A stretch of DNA of 49,572 nt from Ruminococcus sp. (GTDB lineage Bacteria; Bacillota; Clostridia; Oscillospirales; Acutalibacteraceae), in contig JAFTHZ010000021.1 of the NCBI GenBank assembly GCA_017457155.1, positions 1 through 49,572 of the forward strand, in the 5' to 3' direction. Both the position numbers and the translations under genes were made by a program. Shown here one piece after another: positions 1 through 47,503 of the stretch. The notes below the pieces were generated by a model. The model did no database searches. It saw nothing but the letters and a program-made list of their open reading frames with translations, and was not told the origin of the DNA. Within the stretch, counting starts at the first letter, position 1, and every line of letters starts with the position of its first letter.

Positions 1-135
1 CCCACGGGACCCATTTATGGGTAGTAAGTAATAGTTGCATGGCTGGCAGGCCAATAAAAAGCGCACTTGTGCGCAGCCAGTAATATTAGGGCTATGCCCG
101 AAAATGAAATACCCCCCGTTTTACGGGGGGATATT
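1..135. repeat. Hairpin-rich intergenic tract with terminator
   Basis: No gene is seen. Five short perfect or near-perfect hairpins follow one another: CCCAT/ATGGG near 10-21, TGGC/GGCCA near 40-54, GCGCAC/GTGCGC at 61-74, GGGC/GCCC near 89-99, and CCCCCCG/CGGGGGG at 112-130. TGGCTG near 40 can also pair with CAGCCA near 75. The last hairpin lies just after the minus-strand hydrolase gene and probably terminates it. The rest resembles a small dispersed structured repeat, but only one copy is visible here, so that is inference. Confidence 0.5.
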
Positions 136-162: not shown

Positions 163-918
163 TTATCTGCCGAAAAAATCCTCAACTACCTTTGCCCAGT
201 CAACAGGCTCGTATATGGCACCTTGGCAGTGACTGTCACCCTTGAAGCTGACAACACAGGCGGTAGGGTAGTATTTTGCAATCAGTCGAGCAGTTTTCTT
301 TGACAGCATTTCGTTCATAGTTGTGCCGTGCAGATATAGTATCTTTGTGTTTTCTGTGGGAAGAATAGGGGATATATGTGAGGCTTTCAGGGAACTGATT
401 ATGTTTCTGATGCTTTCATCGGAAGTGTAGTCTATGAAGGAGAGAAAATCATTCAGGTACTTTTCAGGAAGAAAAACTTTGCTGAAGTTTTTGAGAGTCT
501 TCTTATGACGTTTCCTGGATTTCTCTGCGATAGAGAGGTACTGCTTGGTCATAACATAGGACATAAACTTGCCGTATCCCAGCAGAGGAGCCCCATCCAT
601 AATCAGATTCTTAATCCTGAGGTTGTTTCTCAGTAATAATCTGTATGCGATCACGCCACCCATAGATAGGCCGCAGACAGCAAAAACCTCCTGAGAGAAA
701 TTTTTCAGAACGTATTCTTCTATTATCTTTGCTTCTTCATCAATGGAGCTGAAGGTGCTCTCGCATCCTTGAGTGTGTCCATCAAGCTCAGGTATCAATA
801 CACAGTAATTCTTACAGAAGAAGTCAGCAGCAGGTCTGAGAATCTGCCAGGGTGTCATCATCCCGTGAATGAGGATGATGAGAGGACAGTTTTTGTCTCC
901 AAAAATATGAAATTTCAT
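163..918 (-). CDS. Alpha/beta-fold hydrolase
   Basis: A 251-residue cytosolic alpha/beta hydrolase; no signal peptide. The oxyanion-side HG motif (LIHGMMTP) follows the first core strand, the nucleophile elbow is GLSMGG with Ser as nucleophile, and a C-terminal DSHCQG region supplies the likely catalytic His. The start chosen (MKFHIFGD) has an AAAGGAG ribosome site about 9 bases upstream; an upstream in-frame start would add 16 residues without such a site. Substrate cannot be told from sequence: esterase, lipase-like or C-C hydrolase are all possible. It stands alone, transcribed away from the ABC exporter genes, and ends before a GC-rich hairpin at 112-130. Confidence 0.8.
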   Translation of the reverse strand: MKFHIFGDKNCPLIILIHGMMTPWQILRPAADFFCKNYCVLIPELDGHTQGCESTFSSIDEEAKIIEEYVLKNFSQEVFAVCGLSMGGVIAYRLLLRNNLRIKNLIMDGAPLLGYGKFMSYVMTKQYLSIAEKSRKRHKKTLKNFSKVFLPEKYLNDFLSFIDYTSDESIRNIISSLKASHISPILPTENTKILYLHGTTMNEMLSKKTARLIAKYYPTACVVSFKGDSHCQGAIYEPVDWAKVVEDFFGR

Positions 919-7288: not shown

Positions 7289-7318
7289 AAAAAGGGATAC
7301 CCCATCGGGTATCCCTTA
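7289..7318 (-). terminator. Terminator of distal repeat unit
   Basis: AAGGGATACCC pairs with GGGTATCCCTT around a short loop. On the minus strand a T-rich run follows the stem. The same stem, with different loops, recurs at 7514-7541, 7739-7765 and 46321-46346. Confidence 0.8.
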
Positions 7319-7326
7319 ATTCTTAT

Positions 7327-7503
7327 GGTGCAGGTAACAGTGAATTTATTATGTGAAAGCTTACACCTCGCTTGTTGCGGCGTGTGTAATTCAGAGATTC
7401 ATCAGCGCAGCGGCTAAAAAACAGTCCACAGGACTGTTTTTACCTGCAGTTTTCGCTAACGCTTAAACTTTGGCACAGCCTGTTCAAATCCTGTATCCTG
7501 CAC
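7327..7503 (-). repeat. tRNA-3'-end-bounded structured repeat, copy 1
   Basis: A 177-bp element. Its left end GGTGCAGGTAACAG equals the 3' end of the nearby tRNA-Leu read on the minus strand. Its right end, ATCCTGCAC, is an inverted, slightly diverged copy, so the two ends can pair as a 7-bp acceptor-like stem (GTGCAGG/CCTGCAC). Internally there is a strong hairpin AACAGTCC/GGACTGTT flanked by A and T runs. It lies in a tandem array with period 224 bp together with a terminator stem. No reading frame is conserved. Confidence 0.85.
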
Positions 7504-7513
7504 TGAAATAAAG

Positions 7514-7541
7514 AAAAGGGATACCCAACTGGGTATCCCTT
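7514..7541 (-). terminator. Terminator between repeat units
   Basis: AAGGGATACCC/GGGTATCCCTT stem with an AACT loop; on the minus strand it is followed by TTTTC and further T residues. It is the same stem as after the real tRNA-Leu gene. Confidence 0.8.
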
Positions 7542-7550
7542 AATTCTTAT

Positions 7551-7727
7551 GGTGCAGGTAACAGTGAATTTATTATGCGAAAGCTTACACCTCGCTTGTT
7601 GCGGCGTGTGTAATTCAAAGATTCATCAGCGCAGCGGCTTAAAAACAGTCCACAGGACTGTTTTTGCCTGCAGTTTTCGCTAACGCTTAAACTTTGGCAC
7701 AGCCTGTTCAAATCCTGTATCCTGCAC
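7551..7727 (-). repeat. tRNA-3'-end-bounded structured repeat, copy 2
   Basis: Nearly identical to copy 1 (a few substitutions, same 177-bp length, exact 224-bp offset). It therefore arose by recent tandem duplication or repeated insertion. It has the same inverted tRNA-like ends and AACAGTCC/GGACTGTT hairpin. It sits directly beyond the terminator of tRNA-Leu on that gene's strand. Confidence 0.85.
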
Positions 7728-7738
7728 TGAAATAAAGA

Positions 7739-7765
7739 AAAGGGATACCCAACTGGGTATCCCTT
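7739..7765 (-). terminator. Intrinsic terminator of tRNA-Leu
   Basis: Stem AGGGATACCC/GGGTATCCCT 8-10 bases past the encoded CCA, followed on the minus strand by TTTTCTTTATTT. Confidence 0.85.
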
Positions 7766-7773
7766 AATTCTTA

Positions 7774-7860
7774 TGGTGCAGGTAACAGGACTTGAACCTG
7801 CATGAAATTGCTTTCACATGGACCTGAACCATGCGCGTCTGCCAATTCCGCCATACCTGC
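7774..7860 (-). tRNA. tRNA-Leu (anticodon CAG)
   Basis: An 87-base class II tRNA read on the minus strand. Acceptor 5' GCAGGTA pairs with 3' TACCTGC, then discriminator A and encoded CCA. The D arm has GGCGGAATTGGCAGACGC. The anticodon stem CATGG/CCATG encloses loop TTCAGGT, giving CAG (plus-strand 7824-7826). A long variable arm (TGAAAGC...TTTCA) and T loop TTCAAGT follow. It has its own consensus promoter and terminator. Confidence 0.97.
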
Positions 7861-41816: not shown

Positions 41817-41867
41817 TGTTATGTTTTTCTGTTAAACTCCTGGTTGATTTTTTCTATTTCGCGTTCA

Positions 41868-41896
41868 TTGAAAAACTTCTGGCATCGTGGTAATAT
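41868..41896 (+). promoter_or_regulatory. Promoter of dockerin hydrolase gene
   Basis: TTGAAA (41868-41873) and TAATAT (41891-41896), 17-base spacer, just before the ribosome site. Confidence 0.65.
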
Positions 41897-41918
41897 CATG
41901 GTGAAAGGAGTTTTGAAT

Positions 41919-43214
41919 ATGAAAATCAAAAATACAATCTGCGTTTTACTTGCTCTGTGTTTTTTGCTCAGTGTGAGTCTTGTTCCTTGCTCTGCCGTTG
42001 CAGGTGCAGATATAGATCCTCAGAGTTATCTTGAGGAACAGATGGAAGAATATGATATCAGCGGAGTTGCCTATATCACCAAAAACGGAAGGGTCCTTTG
42101 TCATAGCACAAGGGGAATGGCAAATACCGCTCAGTCAAAGGAAATGAGTTTAGAGACTCTTTTTCCCATAGGTTCAAACTCAAAACAGTTTTGTGCGGCA
42201 GCCATACTGATTCTGCAGGAGCAGGGGAAACTGAGTGTTGATGATACACTCTCGCAGTATTTTCCTGATTATACAGTTGCACAGGATGTTACAATAAAGA
42301 ATCTGCTGACCCATCGTTCAGGAATACGTGAACATCTGGAGGGCTTGTTCTCAGGGTACACAGTCTCGGAGGAGGCTACAGCACAGGAGAATACACAGGA
42401 GATTTTAGACTGGCTGTATACCAAAAAGCTTCTGTTCAATCCTGATAAAGGATACAGATACTCGAACGCTAATTATCTCTTGCTTTCATTGATAGTCGAA
42501 ATGGTATCAGGTCAGAGCTATGCTGAGTTTATTGAGGAGAACATCTTTGTGCCTCTTGGTATGAACAACTCCGGATTTTATGAGGAGCTGGTGGATCACA
42601 CCGACCTTGCAGAGCATACAGGTGATACTGATCAGTTAATTGATGCGCGTTACAAAGGTCTGACTCATGGCTGTGGCGATATTGTGTCCACAGCTCAGGA
42701 TATGGACAAATGGATGACATCTCTCAGGGAATATACTGTACTCTCAAAGGAAAGCGTTGCCGAAATGACCACTAATTATTCTAAGAGTGATGGCTATGGA
42801 TACGGCATAAGAGTTCAGGATGACGGCGGACTGTGTCATGATGGAGCAGTTGTCACTTACCTGAGCTTCACTCTTACATATCCTGAGGACGGTTTCAATA
42901 TATTTGCAGTTACTAATGATATAAATAATAGGGGTATGCAGCTGATGAATCTGGTTTTTGAGGCTGCTGAGGACCTTAAGGATCTGGAAATACCTGATTT
43001 GCTATGTGGAGATTCTGATGAGGACGGCAAGGTTAACATCAAAGATGCCACCGCTATTCAGAAACATATTGCAGATCTTATCAAGCTATCTAATTCGGGG
43101 CTTTTGATGGCAGATGTAGATGCATCGGGACTTGTCAATGTTAAGGATGCAACTGTCATTCAGAAGCATCTTGCGGGTATGGATACAGGATTTCCTGTAG
43201 GTGGTATTATGTAA
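41919..43214 (+). CDS. Secreted class C beta-lactamase-like serine hydrolase with C-terminal dockerin
   Basis: A 431-residue exported protein. Signal peptide at 1-28 (cleaved near CSAVAGA), then a serine beta-lactamase/D-alanyl carboxypeptidase-like domain (about 35-355) with SxxK in PIGSNSKQF, YxN in RYSNAN and the third motif region near HDGAVVTY. The type I dockerin (about 365-425) has two calcium loops, DSDEDGKVNIKDATAIQKHI and DVDASGLVNVKDATVIQKHL. The dockerin implies anchoring to a cohesin scaffold. The substrate may be an ester or peptide rather than a beta-lactam. AAAGGAG precedes the chosen ATG. Confidence 0.92.
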   Translation: MKIKNTICVLLALCFLLSVSLVPCSAVAGADIDPQSYLEEQMEEYDISGVAYITKNGRVLCHSTRGMANTAQSKEMSLETLFPIGSNSKQFCAAAILILQEQGKLSVDDTLSQYFPDYTVAQDVTIKNLLTHRSGIREHLEGLFSGYTVSEEATAQENTQEILDWLYTKKLLFNPDKGYRYSNANYLLLSLIVEMVSGQSYAEFIEENIFVPLGMNNSGFYEELVDHTDLAEHTGDTDQLIDARYKGLTHGCGDIVSTAQDMDKWMTSLREYTVLSKESVAEMTTNYSKSDGYGYGIRVQDDGGLCHDGAVVTYLSFTLTYPEDGFNIFAVTNDINNRGMQLMNLVFEAAEDLKDLEIPDLLCGDSDEDGKVNIKDATAIQKHIADLIKLSNSGLLMADVDASGLVNVKDATVIQKHLAGMDTGFPVGGIM

Positions 43215-43937: not shown

Positions 43938-44912
43938 TTAGTTCAGAAAAAGCACATCCTCTTCGTAAATAGGCGAAAAGGTACTCAGTTCGGAATCTTC
44001 TAGATTGACATTGTGGATATCCACTGCTGATATCCTGTGATTGTTGTAGGTTTTTACATAGTATATTCCTTTTTCAAGATTACAGCAGGATGAGTACACT
44101 GTGATAACGTTTATATTATCTTCTAATCGTACAGCTCCTCTTTGTTGCTCTACAGATGACAGTATATGAAAAAACTGATTAACGCTGTCTTTTTCTGTCT
44201 CAGGGGACACAGAATTTGTTTTTGTGAAAACAGCCCTGACAAACCTCGAGGAGGAGGACAGATCTCCGGGTAGTCCGATTCCTCCCAGTCCTCTGCTGTA
44301 GTCGGGGAGAGTTACGTTATCGCATATTCTGTTTATCGCGGGATAAGGGGATACTCCCGAAAAATTACTCAGATAGGTCATCTGATAGTCAAAAGGCGGA
44401 TTGTTTGTCAGTACTCCCACAGGGTTGTCATAGACTTTTAGTCCATCTCCTATAGGTTCAACGGTTATGGATTTGTCTTTGTCAGTTATCATAAAGTGCA
44501 GGGGAGTAACTTGCAGGGTCGGGCTGAAATTTTCTTTTATGAGAGAGGATCTCTCCAGGAGTCTTTTTGCTTCGTCGATAGTTTTGCATTGAGAGAGAAT
44601 CCATGGTATAAGCTCAAAGGGAGCGATATTGCTGCAGTTTTCTTTGTAATTGTTGTAAATGGCATTTGCGGGGAAGTTCAGCCCTGCCATAGCAAGTCCT
44701 TCTTCATTTATTGCATCATAGTATAACGGGTAATTATCTGAGATATGAGCCATACCTATGATTGCATAATGATTGAAAATGGATTTTTCATATCGGAACA
44801 TAAAGGGGAAACGTCTCGGGGTAATGGTGATTTTTTCATTATATGAGTATTCCAAATCCAGGTTTCTGCCGAAATAGTGATCTTTTGTAGCGAAAGCAAC
44901 AGCTGTGCACAT
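43938..44912 (-). CDS. Choloylglycine hydrolase family (bile salt hydrolase/penicillin V acylase)
   Basis: A 324-residue N-terminal-nucleophile amidase. ATG at 44912 gives MCTAVAF, so removal of Met exposes catalytic Cys2; GGAGTG lies about 9 bases upstream. Other family residues are GRNLDLE (Arg, Asp), LTNNPPF (Asn) and GLPGDLSSSSRFVRA (Arg). These last motifs are typical of conjugated-bile-acid hydrolases, which split glycine or taurine from bile salts. Penicillin V acylase cannot be excluded without substrate-pocket comparison. No signal peptide. Single gene. Confidence 0.92.
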   Translation of the reverse strand: MCTAVAFATKDHYFGRNLDLEYSYNEKITITPRRFPFMFRYEKSIFNHYAIIGMAHISDNYPLYYDAINEEGLAMAGLNFPANAIYNNYKENCSNIAPFELIPWILSQCKTIDEAKRLLERSSLIKENFSPTLQVTPLHFMITDKDKSITVEPIGDGLKVYDNPVGVLTNNPPFDYQMTYLSNFSGVSPYPAINRICDNVTLPDYSRGLGGIGLPGDLSSSSRFVRAVFTKTNSVSPETEKDSVNQFFHILSSVEQQRGAVRLEDNINVITVYSSCCNLEKGIYYVKTYNNHRISAVDIHNVNLEDSELSTFSPIYEEDVLFLN

Positions 44913-45122
44913 AATCTTCACTCCATTCAGGGTTTAGATTATTATGCGCAGTTTTTTCTTTATGATGTGATGTTTATCGTTTTTACTATGTGAGTTTCTT
45001 TATTGAGTTATGAGAATATTTGTCATGTTTTATCCTGAAAACCAGGTTGTGCATTTATTATCCATTAATATGTGTCATAAATATAGCATCATGAATAATA
45101 TGTATTATTCAATGATAAGGAG

Positions 45123-46061
45123 GTGAGATTAATAAAAACCTGGAATTGTAGTGATATTAATAATTCTGAGATTAATCCTTCTGATAATTGTAATAACAGA
45201 TGTGGTTGTGAGAATAGATTCTATTGTTCACCTGTATGCCCTCCGGGCCCCGCTGGTCCACAGGGTCCCGCTGGTGAGACAGGTCCCGCAGGCCCTCAGG
45301 GTCCTATTGGAGAAACAGGTCCCGCAGGCCCTCAGGGTCCCACAGGTGAGACAGGTCCCATAGGTCCTCAGGGTCCCGCTGGTGCGACAGGTCCCGCAGG
45401 ACCTCAGGGTCCCATAGGTGAGACAGGCCCCGCAGGTCCTCAGGGTCCCGCTGGTGAGACAGGACCCATAGGTCCTCAGGGCCCCGTTGGTGAGACAGGT
45501 CCCATAGGTCCTCAGGGTCCCGCTGGTGCGACAGGTCCCATAGGTCCTCAGGGTCCCATAGGTGAGACAGGTCCCGCAGGCCCTCAGGGTCCTATTGGTG
45601 AGACAGGTCCCGCAGGCCCTCAGGGTCCTGCAGGTACTGTGTTGAATTATGCGGATTTCTATGCTCTTATGCCTCCTGATAATGCTGCTACAGTTGCTCC
45701 GGGGGATGATGTCAGCTTCCCTCAGAATGGAGTTGTCAGCAGCGCTGATATCTCCAGAGTGGATGATTCTTCTTTCAATCTTGCTCAGATTGGTGTGTAT
45801 CAGATACTGTTTGAAGTAAGTGTGGACGAAGCAGGACAGTTGGCTTTGACTCTCAACGGAGATGAACTGGAGTATACAGTAGTAGGAAGAGCAACGGGAA
45901 CCTCACAGATTGTTGGTTTTGCATTGGTGGCAACAACCGTTGAAAATTCTGTCCTGACTGTGAGAAATCCTGCGGATAATACAACAGCTCTTACAATAAC
46001 TCCTCTTGCCGGAGGAACATATCCTGTTTCCGCACATCTTGTTATTCTTCAGTTAGCATAA
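45123..46061 (+). CDS. Collagen-like BclA-type surface protein
   Basis: About 310 residues. A Cys/Asn-rich N terminus ([19 protein letters not shown]) leads to about 44 Gly-X-Y triplets, mostly GPxGPQGPxGET/AT, and a C-terminal globular domain (about 172-312: [16 protein letters not shown]..., ending [13 protein letters not shown]) resembling the TNF-like exosporium BclA head. It likely forms trimeric filaments on the spore or cell surface. Start uncertain: AAGGAGG at 45117-45123 overlaps the only GTG in frame, and a well-spaced canonical start is lacking. A CATAAATA box near 45075 might be a sporulation-sigma -10. Confidence 0.85.
45246..45638 (+). repeat. 36-bp coding tandem repeat (collagen region)
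   Basis: About eleven 36-bp units encoding GPxGPQGPx followed by GET or GAT. Nucleotide units are nearly identical with third-base and single-residue variation, so copy number may vary between strains. Confidence 0.93.
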
Positions 46062-46310: not shown

Positions 46311-46320
46311 GAAAAATAAG

Positions 46321-46346
46321 AAAAGGGATACCCTCGGGTATCCCTT
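46321..46346 (-). terminator. tRNA-type terminator, orphan
   Basis: AAGGGATACCC/GGGTATCCCTT with loop TC, the same stem as after tRNA-Leu, followed on the minus strand by TTTTCTTATTTTT. It is flanked by TTATGGTGCGCCAGAG (46352-46367), which looks like a tRNA 3' end with CCA on the minus strand, but no complete tRNA can be folded beyond it. Confidence 0.65.
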
Positions 46347-46410
46347 AATTCTTATGGTGCGCCAGAGCATTCTATAATCGAACCATTTACCTCATCAAGA
46401 GTAACGGTAG

Positions 46411-46674
46411 TGCTTCAGTACTTATGAATTTGTTAAACAATATTGTGTGCCCAATATGCTGATTAAACTCAGACAGGGTGTGGGCAGACTCATCAGAAGC
46501 GAAACCGATACAGGAGTTGTTACAATTCTTGATGAACGAGTAGCTCGAGGAGGTAGATATCGCCACAGAGTTTTGCAAACACTAAATAAGTTCGGCAAAG
46601 TAGAAAATATGACTGATTTAAGAAGATTCTTTGAAAAAGTGAAGCCCACAGAGTATTGGGGCGCAGAACAATAA
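46411..46674 (+). pseudogene. DinG-type helicase C-terminal fragment
   Basis: The frame, open from just after a stop at 46408, reads ...YEFVKQYCVPNMLIKLRQG then VGRLIRSETDTGVVTILDERV and RYRHRVLQTL. This is motif VI and the C terminus of DinG/Rad3-type superfamily 2 helicases. About 80 residues remain of a protein usually over 600. No plausible start; the N-terminal parts are deleted. Confidence 0.8.
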
Positions 46675-46714
46675 AAAGGATGCTGTCAGCCTATATGACA
46701 GAGAAAGGATATCT

Positions 46715-46882
46715 ATGAATAAAACAAATGAAAGTTCAAGAATTAAATCCGTACAGTTTGAATATGTAGGAACAGACGAACAGTTTGTTAACTTTTTAAA
46801 ATACGTTTTTAGAGATTACATAACCGGAAGTAAAGTGACATCTGACGAACAGAGTGGATTTGTTCGGATAAGTTCGATTTAA
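46715..46882 (+). CDS. Small element protein upstream of recombinase
   Basis: A 55-residue frame, MNKTNESSRIKSVQFEYVGT..., with GAGAAAGGAT ribosome site. The pattern SVQFEYVGTDEQFVNFLKYVFRDYI resembles small proteins that precede large serine recombinases in Firmicutes conjugative elements. Function unknown. The C terminus may be altered by the local decay. Confidence 0.6.
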   Translation: MNKTNESSRIKSVQFEYVGTDEQFVNFLKYVFRDYITGSKVTSDEQSGFVRISSI

Positions 46883-46913
46883 AGCTGGATATTGCAGAAC
46901 TCTTGTGATATGT

Positions 46914-46942
46914 TGTTGTTGCACCAAGGTAGTGCGACAACA
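46914..46942 (+). promoter_or_regulatory. Hairpin before recombinase ribosome site
   Basis: TGTTGTTGCAC (46914-46924) pairs with GTGCGACAACA (46932-46942) with one G-T pair, ending 18 bases before the recombinase AAGGAG. It has no T run, so it is more likely a translational or RNA-stability element than a terminator. Confidence 0.6.
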
Positions 46943-46972
46943 ATATTCCAATTAGTCGGAAGGAGAATGTTT

Positions 46973-47503
46973 ATGGTAAATGAAATTCTGCATACAAAAA
47001 GATATTTACGTGTATGGTTATATTATAGATTATCAAGAGATGAAGATGTAGAACTTAATTCACTTAATAATCAGCGTGGAATTCTTGTAGACTTCGTTGA
47101 CAGTAAAGGATACGATATAGTAGGAGAATCCTTTGATGATAATGTAAGCGGTATGCATTTTGAAAGAGAGGGCATACATAAACTTTGCGAAGCTGTGGAT
47201 AAGGGTCTTATTGATGCCGTAATAGTTAAAGATTTATCACGACTTGGCAGACACAGAACTCAGACTGCAGTGTTCATTGATTACTTAAGACAACACAAAG
47301 TCAAGGTGTTATCAGTTACAGAGAACATAGATACAAATGATGAAAACGATGACTTGCTTGTAGGTTTCAAAGGTATCGTCAACGACTTATATGCAAAAGA
47401 TATATCAAAGAAGATAAGTGCAGGATACCTTCAAAAACAGAAAAATGGTATCATCATAACAACTCCTATGTCCCACCTTTTTCTCCGATATATATTGCGA
47501 TAA
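46973..47503 (+). pseudogene. Truncated serine recombinase
   Basis: Resolvase catalytic domain of a large serine recombinase: VWLYYRLSRDEDVE (with catalytic Ser), FDDNVSGMHFEREGI, VIVKDLSRLGRHR and GIVNDLYAKDISKKISAGYLQKQ. At residue ~165 it leaves the family pattern (where PFGYxK is expected) and runs into unrelated MSHLFLRYILR and a stop. The recombinase zinc-ribbon and coiled-coil DNA-binding parts (over 300 residues) are missing, so it should not be able to integrate. AAGGAG precedes ATG 46973. Confidence 0.87.

Follow-up and report, generated by a model that had tools for sequence, protein, structure and literature searches.

The window, by which we mean the whole stretch of DNA analysed here (49,572 nucleotides of a Ruminococcus sp. 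contig, JAFTHZ010000021.1), carries on its minus strand an array of two tandem 224-bp units behind the gene for tRNA-Leu(CAG). The array occupies positions 7290-7737 and the tRNA gene 7774-7860; the two units are 97% identical. Read on the minus strand, each core is opened by GTGCAGGATACAGGATTTGAAC, a diverged inverted copy of the tRNA 3' end that we call INV, and closed by CTGTTACCTGCACCA, the exact last 15 nt of tRNA-Leu(CAG), which we call DIR. An earlier note on this DNA, made from the letters alone, had described two tandem units on the strand of the tRNA whose cores are bounded by an exact and an inverted, diverged copy of its 3' end, and both points are seen here. The general order of a typical copy, in the orientation of the tRNA, is tRNA-CCA, terminator, INV (an inverted copy of tRNA positions 54-74), a covarying multi-hairpin body and DIR (which repeats the tRNA 3' end in direct orientation). 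The features of the array and of a third copy in the window are as follows.

7774..7860, minus strand: tRNA-Leu(CAG), the host gene (ARAGORN; Rfam RF00005)
7728..7773, minus strand: spacer and terminator hairpin, from the tRNA to the proximal unit
7706..7727, minus strand: INV of the proximal unit, diverged copy of the tRNA 3' end (+47..68 after the tRNA)
7565..7705, minus strand: body of the proximal unit, covarying hairpins; palindrome at 7640-7665
7550..7564, minus strand: DIR of the proximal unit, last 15 nt of the tRNA, CTGTTACCTGCACCA (+210..224 after the tRNA)
7504..7549, minus strand: repeated spacer and terminator between the units
7482..7503, minus strand: INV of the distal unit (proximal coordinates minus 224)
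7341..7481, minus strand: body of the distal unit; palindrome at 7417-7442
7326..7340, minus strand: DIR of the distal unit
7290..7325, minus strand: terminator past the last DIR, resembling those of the spacers as far as the T-tract; possibly the remnant of a further unit
46311..46357, minus strand: spacer/terminator of the third copy; the CCA that borders it on the tRNA side closes a reading frame (..SGAP stop) rather than a tRNA, and the same end occurs in locus L086
46129..46310, minus strand: third copy, with a DIR of the tRNA-Leu(TAG) type (covariance model R1, 177.8 bits)

The third copy ends in CTGTCACCCGCACCA and GTGCGCGGTGGCAGGACTTGAAC, and CTGTCACCCGCACCA is identical to the end of tRNA-Leu(TAG) in sister genomes. 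The earlier proposal that this copy carries the ends of another tRNA agrees with that identity; no tRNA precedes the copy now, however, and its tRNA side (46355-47503) is instead occupied by the remnants of an integrated element. These comprise a Resolvase-domain fragment on the plus strand (46892-47503), about 0.5 kb from the copy, and, on the minus strand, the ..SGAP reading-frame end, which we take to be recombinase-like. The compensatory change that had been read in the internal hairpin is also present, from AACAGTCC/GGACTGTT in the tandem units to AACAGTTC/GAACTGTT in the third copy. Nearby, the window encodes a beta-lactamase-family protein with a dockerin domain (41844-43214), a choloylglycine hydrolase family protein (43938-44921) and a collagen-repeat protein (45123-46061) whose BclA C-terminal match lies under that model's cut-off. 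In an Rfam scan of the window at curated thresholds the tRNA was the sole match, leaving the units without a family, and a permissive scan gave weak matches only, far under family scores.

Body structure and folded strand

The covariance model R1 has 181 positions and was built from 16 units. In an alignment of 16 units made regardless of structure, a consensus of 33 pairs was obtained in which 95.8% of paired cells are standard, against 82.1% after shuffling (none of 500 shuffles as high), and 19 pairs change on both sides, against 12.0 in shuffles. The covariation score was 0.451 compared with 0.193 for shuffles and at most 0.086 when the structure was slid along the alignment, which lowered standard pairing to 35-43%; further pair types showed no excess over shuffles (479 of 500 as high). 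Part of the covariation of the closing stem arises because both ends copy the tRNA, and the inner helices are independent of that.

Which strand is folded? Over the model pairs in larger alignments, with one ambiguous pair left out, G-U outnumbers A-C by 154 to 38, but two pairs supply 99 of the 154 G-U, and the remainder stands at 55 G-U to 38 A-C. The main palindrome alone has 5 G-U and 11 A-C, and the two inner hairpins have 11 and 13. The scarcity of G-U in these two hairpins would be DNA-like; the sum over nearly all pairs leans to the tRNA strand but hangs on two of them. An 80-nt fold of each body revealed no bias towards the tRNA strand (G-U 225 on the tRNA strand versus 271 on the other), whereas terminators at the same loci favoured the tRNA strand, with 53 G-U against 13. 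Taken together, the counts give no more than a weak indication of which strand folds. The earlier note had suggested selection on RNA structure: selection on structure is backed by the covariation, while the strand, and with it RNA, is told weakly.

Ends and host tRNAs

Units were scanned for in 80 loci fetched from a ranked list, none of which had supplied units to R1, and in 39 others that included the sources of the model. Among 158 distinct units, a same-strand upstream ARAGORN tRNA lies within 120 nt in 77, within 400 nt in 24 more, farther away in 3 and is absent in 54, 11 of which sit within 150 nt of the end of their stretch. The spacing is 45-56 nt in 54 of the 77 close units. The 101 units within 400 nt of a tRNA span 25 anticodons. 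When the match of INV and DIR was summed and compared with that to every other-anticodon tRNA in the set, the own tRNA was better in 93 of the 101, tied in 5 and was worse in 3; the 80 fetched loci alone gave 60 of 65 units better, 4 ties and one worse, over 22 anticodons. Of the three losing units, L107 has no DIR left, one is the second of two at L082, and the ends of L074 suit a different allele of tRNA-Pro(TGG), present in L151 and L164. In 80 of the 101 units an exact inverted match to the own tRNA extends for at least 12 nt, which is true of 4 of 505 pairings with other-anticodon tRNAs, and the median exact match is 16 nt against 6.

INV is complementary to the tRNA at 0.96-1.00 over positions 54-63 and at 0.71-0.82 over 69-74, with an abrupt stop at 53; in the tRNA tail, A76 is matched at 0.54 and C75 at 0.17. 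DIR matches at 0.83-0.96 over the last 14 nt, and in the 73 units that end in CCA the exact run is 14 nt in 39, 15 in 12, 16 in 10, 17 in one and shorter in 11. As the T-loop part of INV falls outside DIR in the genus, pairing between INV and DIR does not explain the T-loop match. Mismatches within INV are chiefly C>A (42) and G>T (25), wobble-type changes are not in excess (23 vs 27), and the outer acceptor half is the worst-kept part. Read by eye, some tRNA-Pro(GGG) copies, in the window's own genome and at L245 and L248 of genome G108, have an INV drawn from the anticodon-stem region starting TTCAAGAGG, and their longer DIR starts about 8-9 nt past TTC, as in the T-loop cases; other tRNA-Pro(GGG) copies (L083 and L103) use the T-loop. 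This shift of anchor points to a TTC-anchored sequence rule rather than to tRNA shape.

That the two ends pair in order to mimic an acceptor stem is not supported by these comparisons. INV spans the T-loop and C74, its outer acceptor half decays mostly by C>A and G>T rather than by wobble, and some tRNA-Pro(GGG) copies use the anticodon-stem region, so that the closing stem does not correspond to an acceptor stem in all copies, as it would in a family of tRNA-mimicking RNAs. Acceptor-stem mimicry as the sole cause of the matching is rejected in view of the anchor shift and the mismatch spectrum. A primer-binding site for tRNA-primed reverse transcription is disfavoured by the poor match to A76 and C75 and by the lack of the reverse transcriptase domain RVT_1 in several genomes. 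A fixed 14-bp target duplication would fit the genus but, by eye, not the loci read outside it.

Distribution and genomic settings

Of the 161 genomes available for the genus to which the window belongs, 146 gave R1 matches at E 0.001 or better in a search that scored at most 16 candidates per genome, and blastn with the core matched 124 of the 161, the own genome counted. The structured repeat with tRNA ends is real and far more extensive than first noted: copies are widespread in the genus, are often linked to tRNAs and typically have ends that match their own tRNA. In a family sample 20 of 150 genomes match, 2 of them in the genus itself, corresponding to 19 of 135 genera including the own; in an order sample at E 1e-4 there are 9 of 197, the own genome and 8 from other families. 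The elements are rarer in the family and order samples than in the genus. Nine loci from other families of the order, read by eye, are mostly tRNA-linked (Arg, Leu, Pro, Ala, Ser, Leu fragments; L233 ambiguous), and several of their direct copies measure about 18-22 nt. At L226, in genome G319 of another family, a tRNA-Ala is followed by three tandem repeats 171-172 bp apart, whose body differs and which show an INV-like GGTCAAATAAGGGATTTGA.

A pattern scan of named genomes returned 17 stretches, 15 of them with R1 matches and labelled Ruminococcus, Clostridiales, Clostridia or Oscillospiraceae; the remaining two (L054, L055) had no R1 match. Two element sequences used as queries found no match in phage and plasmid collections. 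In viral contigs two of three patterns gave no hits, and the third gave 5 stretches, none with a model match. At L029, L036, L059, L069, L070 and L076 another structured module (CACCAAAATATAGTCGTT...) takes the place of part of the body or comes after it; its exact form was found in 6 of 229 loci searched, which represent three distinct places.

Copies without an ARAGORN tRNA were surveyed at 32 loci, with one unit taken per locus and 200 nt of upstream sequence required. The host is tmRNA in five (L112 by Rfam; L113, L128, L135 and L136 by eye). Seven (L069, L084, L095, L098, L104, L106, L110) lie, by eye, behind a tRNA 3' fragment that starts near the anticodon loop, and we read these fragments as the putative far attachment site of an integrated element. 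Two (L003, which is the third copy of the window, and L086) share the recombinase-like reading-frame end upstream, and 18 are without explanation, some being later array members at contig ends. An upstream sequence of TCCGTTATNAACACTCGYACCA type that closes with CCA is common to orphans L139, L145, L250 and L252; it may mark the end of a different integrated element exploiting the tRNA end. In genome G108 the model identifies 38 elements, and the Rfam tRNA model gives 41 matches (39 over the cut-off), of which 40 were used; of 30 cluster-last tRNAs, 16 have an element directly after them, while another 7 elements extend arrays and the other 15, several of them at contig ends, lack a tRNA. Copies unlinked to tRNA ends had been named in advance as evidence against the original reading: many copies are in fact linked to a tRNA or tmRNA, but orphans remain.

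Bodies found at different tRNAs within a genome are more alike (0.559, n=58) than those of separate genomes, whether the latter share the tRNA (0.528, n=240) or not (0.477, n=4723). For 101 units, the nearest body outside the own locus belongs to a different tRNA in 70 cases and to the same tRNA in 31, the latter against about 5% expected from pair counts, which indicates that descent partly stays with one tRNA. The tmRNA-linked L112 and the tRNA-Gly-linked L137 share 87% body identity and have different ends, while the three most alike pairs in the list of similar bodies all belong to a single tRNA-Ala type, with a degenerate DIR as their only difference. By eye, several arrays close with a truncated unit. 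At an orthologous tRNA-Ala a unit is present in G142, and G068 has only a terminator and INV remnant; this is the sole ortholog pair, and no clean empty insertion site was found. A search for an empty ortholog through the gene beside the window tRNA led to 9 other loci, all of them lacking a tRNA. The stretch that follows the last DIR resembles the first spacer in some loci and is unrelated to it in others, so that the terminator may be either copied from the target or brought by the element. A terminator-like hairpin stands between tRNA and unit in most genus loci (by eye), short-spaced ones like L118 and L125 excepted.

Genes beside the arrays were compared at 19 loci of 9-19 kb. Two families, named by eye, recur in at least 3 loci, one ATPase-type (5) and one GTPase-type (3), and no mobile-type neighbour gene recurs among the 19. 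Behind one array (L039/L068) lies a gene that by eye encodes an integrase; searched for behind 89 arrays, it gave its own locus and one 24-residue match only. In 23 chosen genomes, 14 rich in elements and 9 with 0-2, RVT_1 occurs in 11 (8 and 3, respectively) and Cas1 in 12 (6 and 6). RVT_1 is missing from G000, G001, G004, G006, G112 and G117 and from four genomes with 1-2 elements, which sets the elements apart from retroelements served by a resident reverse transcriptase. A Cas1 match is missing from the element-bearing G000 (89% complete), G004, G022, G036, G074, G108, G113 and G117, and the near-complete, element-rich G004 and G117 have neither domain. Neither enzyme is therefore needed for the presence of the elements; a past or other enzyme is possible.

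Interpretation and comparison with known systems

What are these repeats? With moderate confidence, we propose that they are small non-autonomous mobile elements that spread among tRNA genes, adopt the 3' end of their target and multiply in tandem. Such an element would be short, non-coding and structured, residing right behind tRNA and tmRNA genes on their strand. It would target the 3' end of tRNA genes and probably supplies a terminator that would keep the tRNA functional. Its ends would be fitted to each new target, either during insertion or later, and recombination between direct copies could account for tandem growth. For the step that rewrites the ends, our leading guess is a folded or base-pairing intermediate in which INV pairs with the target. 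The reading as an element is supported by the matching of ends to the own tRNA, the 25 anticodons and tmRNA hosts, the patchy tandem copies, the truncated units and the bodies shared between copies with different ends. One of the two readings in the earlier note, a small mobile element that assumes the 3' end of the tRNA it targets, is well supported by the 25 anticodons, the tmRNA hosts and the better own-tRNA match in 93 of 101 units. Against it stand the facts that movement and a clean before-and-after site have not been seen, that part of the descent stays with one tRNA, that no mobile-type gene recurs beside the arrays, that G004 and G117 have neither RVT_1 nor Cas1, that the two query sequences met nothing in phages or plasmids, that 18 of 32 orphan loci are without explanation, and that covarying structure and the E. 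coli RttR RNA fit a functional RNA as well.

In that alternative the units are co-transcribed with the tRNA and processed at the CCA of DIR, and the ends are kept by selection for pairing with the host tRNA or for processing like it. The covarying body is in keeping with this, as are the T-tract hairpins that flank units in most loci read (by eye) and, in K-12, an RttR annotation that ends at the CCA of DIR beside a RefSeq note 'processed from tyrT transcript'. A terminator-like hairpin nevertheless separates tRNA from unit in most genus loci, as noted above, no strong promoter-like sequence motif lies ahead of the unit, presence is patchy with truncated units, the acceptor half of INV decays by disruptive changes, some tRNA-Pro(GGG) copies lack acceptor-stem mimicry and the strand bias is weak. 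We consider a functional tRNA-linked RNA rather unlikely and think it reasonably probable that the mobile element is the better account, although both may hold.

Two further explanations deserve consideration. The matching could be produced in place once an element has landed near any tRNA, with no guided targeting: template switching at imperfect palindromes, a known mutational process, would bring INV into line with the tRNA close by, and gene conversion would do so for DIR. The INV-tRNA distance of about 50 nt suits such rewriting, as does the fact that INV, DIR and tRNA remain matched though the tRNAs differ; the same place and orientation behind tRNA-like 3' ends and the sharp edges at positions 54 and 63 are left unaccounted for, and we regard rewriting alone as improbable. 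Slimmer still is the chance that the repeats are a by-product of integrative elements, either attachment-site scars from the integration and excision of islands or decoy attachment sites. Nine of the 32 orphans lie, by eye, behind tRNA 3' fragments (7) or a recombinase-like gene end (2), and an integrase gene follows the array at L039/L068, but that integrase does not recur behind other arrays beyond the single short match, and scars do not account for a conserved covarying body common to several genera. Decoy sites in particular find little support in the integrase search. Small mobile elements that adopt tRNA ends thus remain our preferred reading. The repeats would imply either a new route by which small elements gain a target sequence or a new class of tRNA-linked RNAs.

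Several known systems invite comparison. For casposons, an excerpt of one paper (PMC6614799) gives a 14-15-bp direct repeat at the tRNA 3' end and a target that includes the motif TCAAATC; to us this motif looks like a T-loop. The casposon duplication may be compared with direct copies of mostly 14 nt in the genus, longer in other families and in some tRNA-Pro(GGG) copies (by eye). Casposons differ in having a Cas1 integrase and terminal inverted repeats; the element-rich G108 is among the eight element-bearing genomes without a Cas1-family match. Genomic islands and ICEs that integrate at tRNA genes produce a direct repeat of the tRNA 3' end and keep the tRNA whole. Unlike them, the present elements have no integrase or cargo, contain an inverted copy and place one body at many tRNA targets. 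MITEs, REP/BIME and RU sequences, in partial accounts of them, are likewise short, non-coding, palindromic and interspersed. Their ends are fixed signals, whereas the ends described here copy the host tRNA. Integron attC sites, folded single-stranded recombination sites with an R-box consensus that are served by an integron-type integrase, offer an analogy only. In a literature search that took in few subscription journals and no preprints, and in which the known tyrT papers did not surface, no title or abstract opening pointed to such elements.

The closest known system is found in E. coli, where the end of the tyrT operon contains about three 178-bp repeats that include the last 19 bp of the tRNA gene, and where a 171-nt rtT RNA has been described. 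In K-12, Rfam (RF00391) gives three RtT copies behind tyrV, and the E. coli control scored 133.8-137.5 bits. DIR is exact over 19 nt in each tyrV repeat, an INV-like GGGGAAGGATGAGAA lies 60-74 nt past the tRNA (13 of 15 matching, equalled in one of 500 shuffles), and RttR (b4425) is annotated from +8 to +178 after tyrV, its last nucleotides being exactly the CCA of the first DIR. We read K-12 and eight further loci, chosen for diversity from 30 matching records of the plasmid and phage collections, testing the last tRNA per stretch. In 9 of 9, the RtT DIR is an exact 18-19-nt copy of the end of its own tRNA, the hosts being Tyr (L259, L261, L267), Pro (L260, L262, L263, L265), Lys (L264) and Arg (L266). 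By shuffling, INV reaches significance at Tyr only, in all three loci (1-2 of 500); the best Lys match (14 of 500) is away from the expected place, and at Pro and Arg none is significant, although the Pro loci still show GAGGATGAGAA where it is expected. The RefSeq family note on processing from tyrT stands beside a tRNA-Pro copy. K-12 proK also has an RtT-like unit (L268, NC_000913.3, about 3708448-3708615), unannotated in that record. Six E. coli proK loci were compared, three with the full unit and three without it; K-12 and L270 are exactly one 168-bp unit apart and align over 548 nt with 1 mismatch once the unit is left out. E. coli proK arrays also close with a truncated unit, and 4692 of the 5426 E. 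coli genomes searched contain the rtT body. Right behind the RtT array at a tRNA-Pro, one strain of the species has a transposase gene of IS621 (IS110 family) (L269, 969-1377).

The genus family shares with RtT the repetition of a tRNA 3' end in units that follow this tRNA: in both, same-strand units stand directly after the tRNA, often in tandem, with a hairpin body and a DIR that tracks the host. A truncated last unit and an inverted copy near the front are shared too, in RtT at tRNA-Pro and at tRNA-Tyr, respectively. The two differ in their bodies, which are unlike at the sensitivity used (R1 misses K-12, and RtT misses the genus loci), in the clear inverted copy, which RtT has only at tRNA-Tyr, and in host range, with four tRNA types in nine RtT loci against 25 anticodons in the genus family. 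The RtT covariance model gave no match at its gathering score in the window and 12 loci, where cmscan reported only tRNA and tmRNA families, and the possibility raised at the outset that the units belong to a known Rfam family was not borne out there. The genus family is best regarded as a large, tRNA-targeted one built on the same plan as RtT; its body is different, it uses more host tRNAs, and its ends track the host. The tyrT repeats and RttR would then cease to be an isolated curiosity and become a likely example of a rule, whereby repeats after tRNA genes carry a forward, and often also a reversed, copy of that tRNA. A bolder and doubtful extension is a widespread class of tiny elements that locate tRNA genes through base pairing and whose bodies are unrelated between Clostridia and Gammaproteobacteria, where they are seen; the 21-nt INV (at least 0.96 over positions 54-63) would serve as a reprogrammable targeting sequence for insertion at tRNA 3' ends, rewritten on moving, and the tyrT repeats would be one local case. 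As the arrangement occurs at tyrV and proK of K-12, it can be tested in a standard strain.
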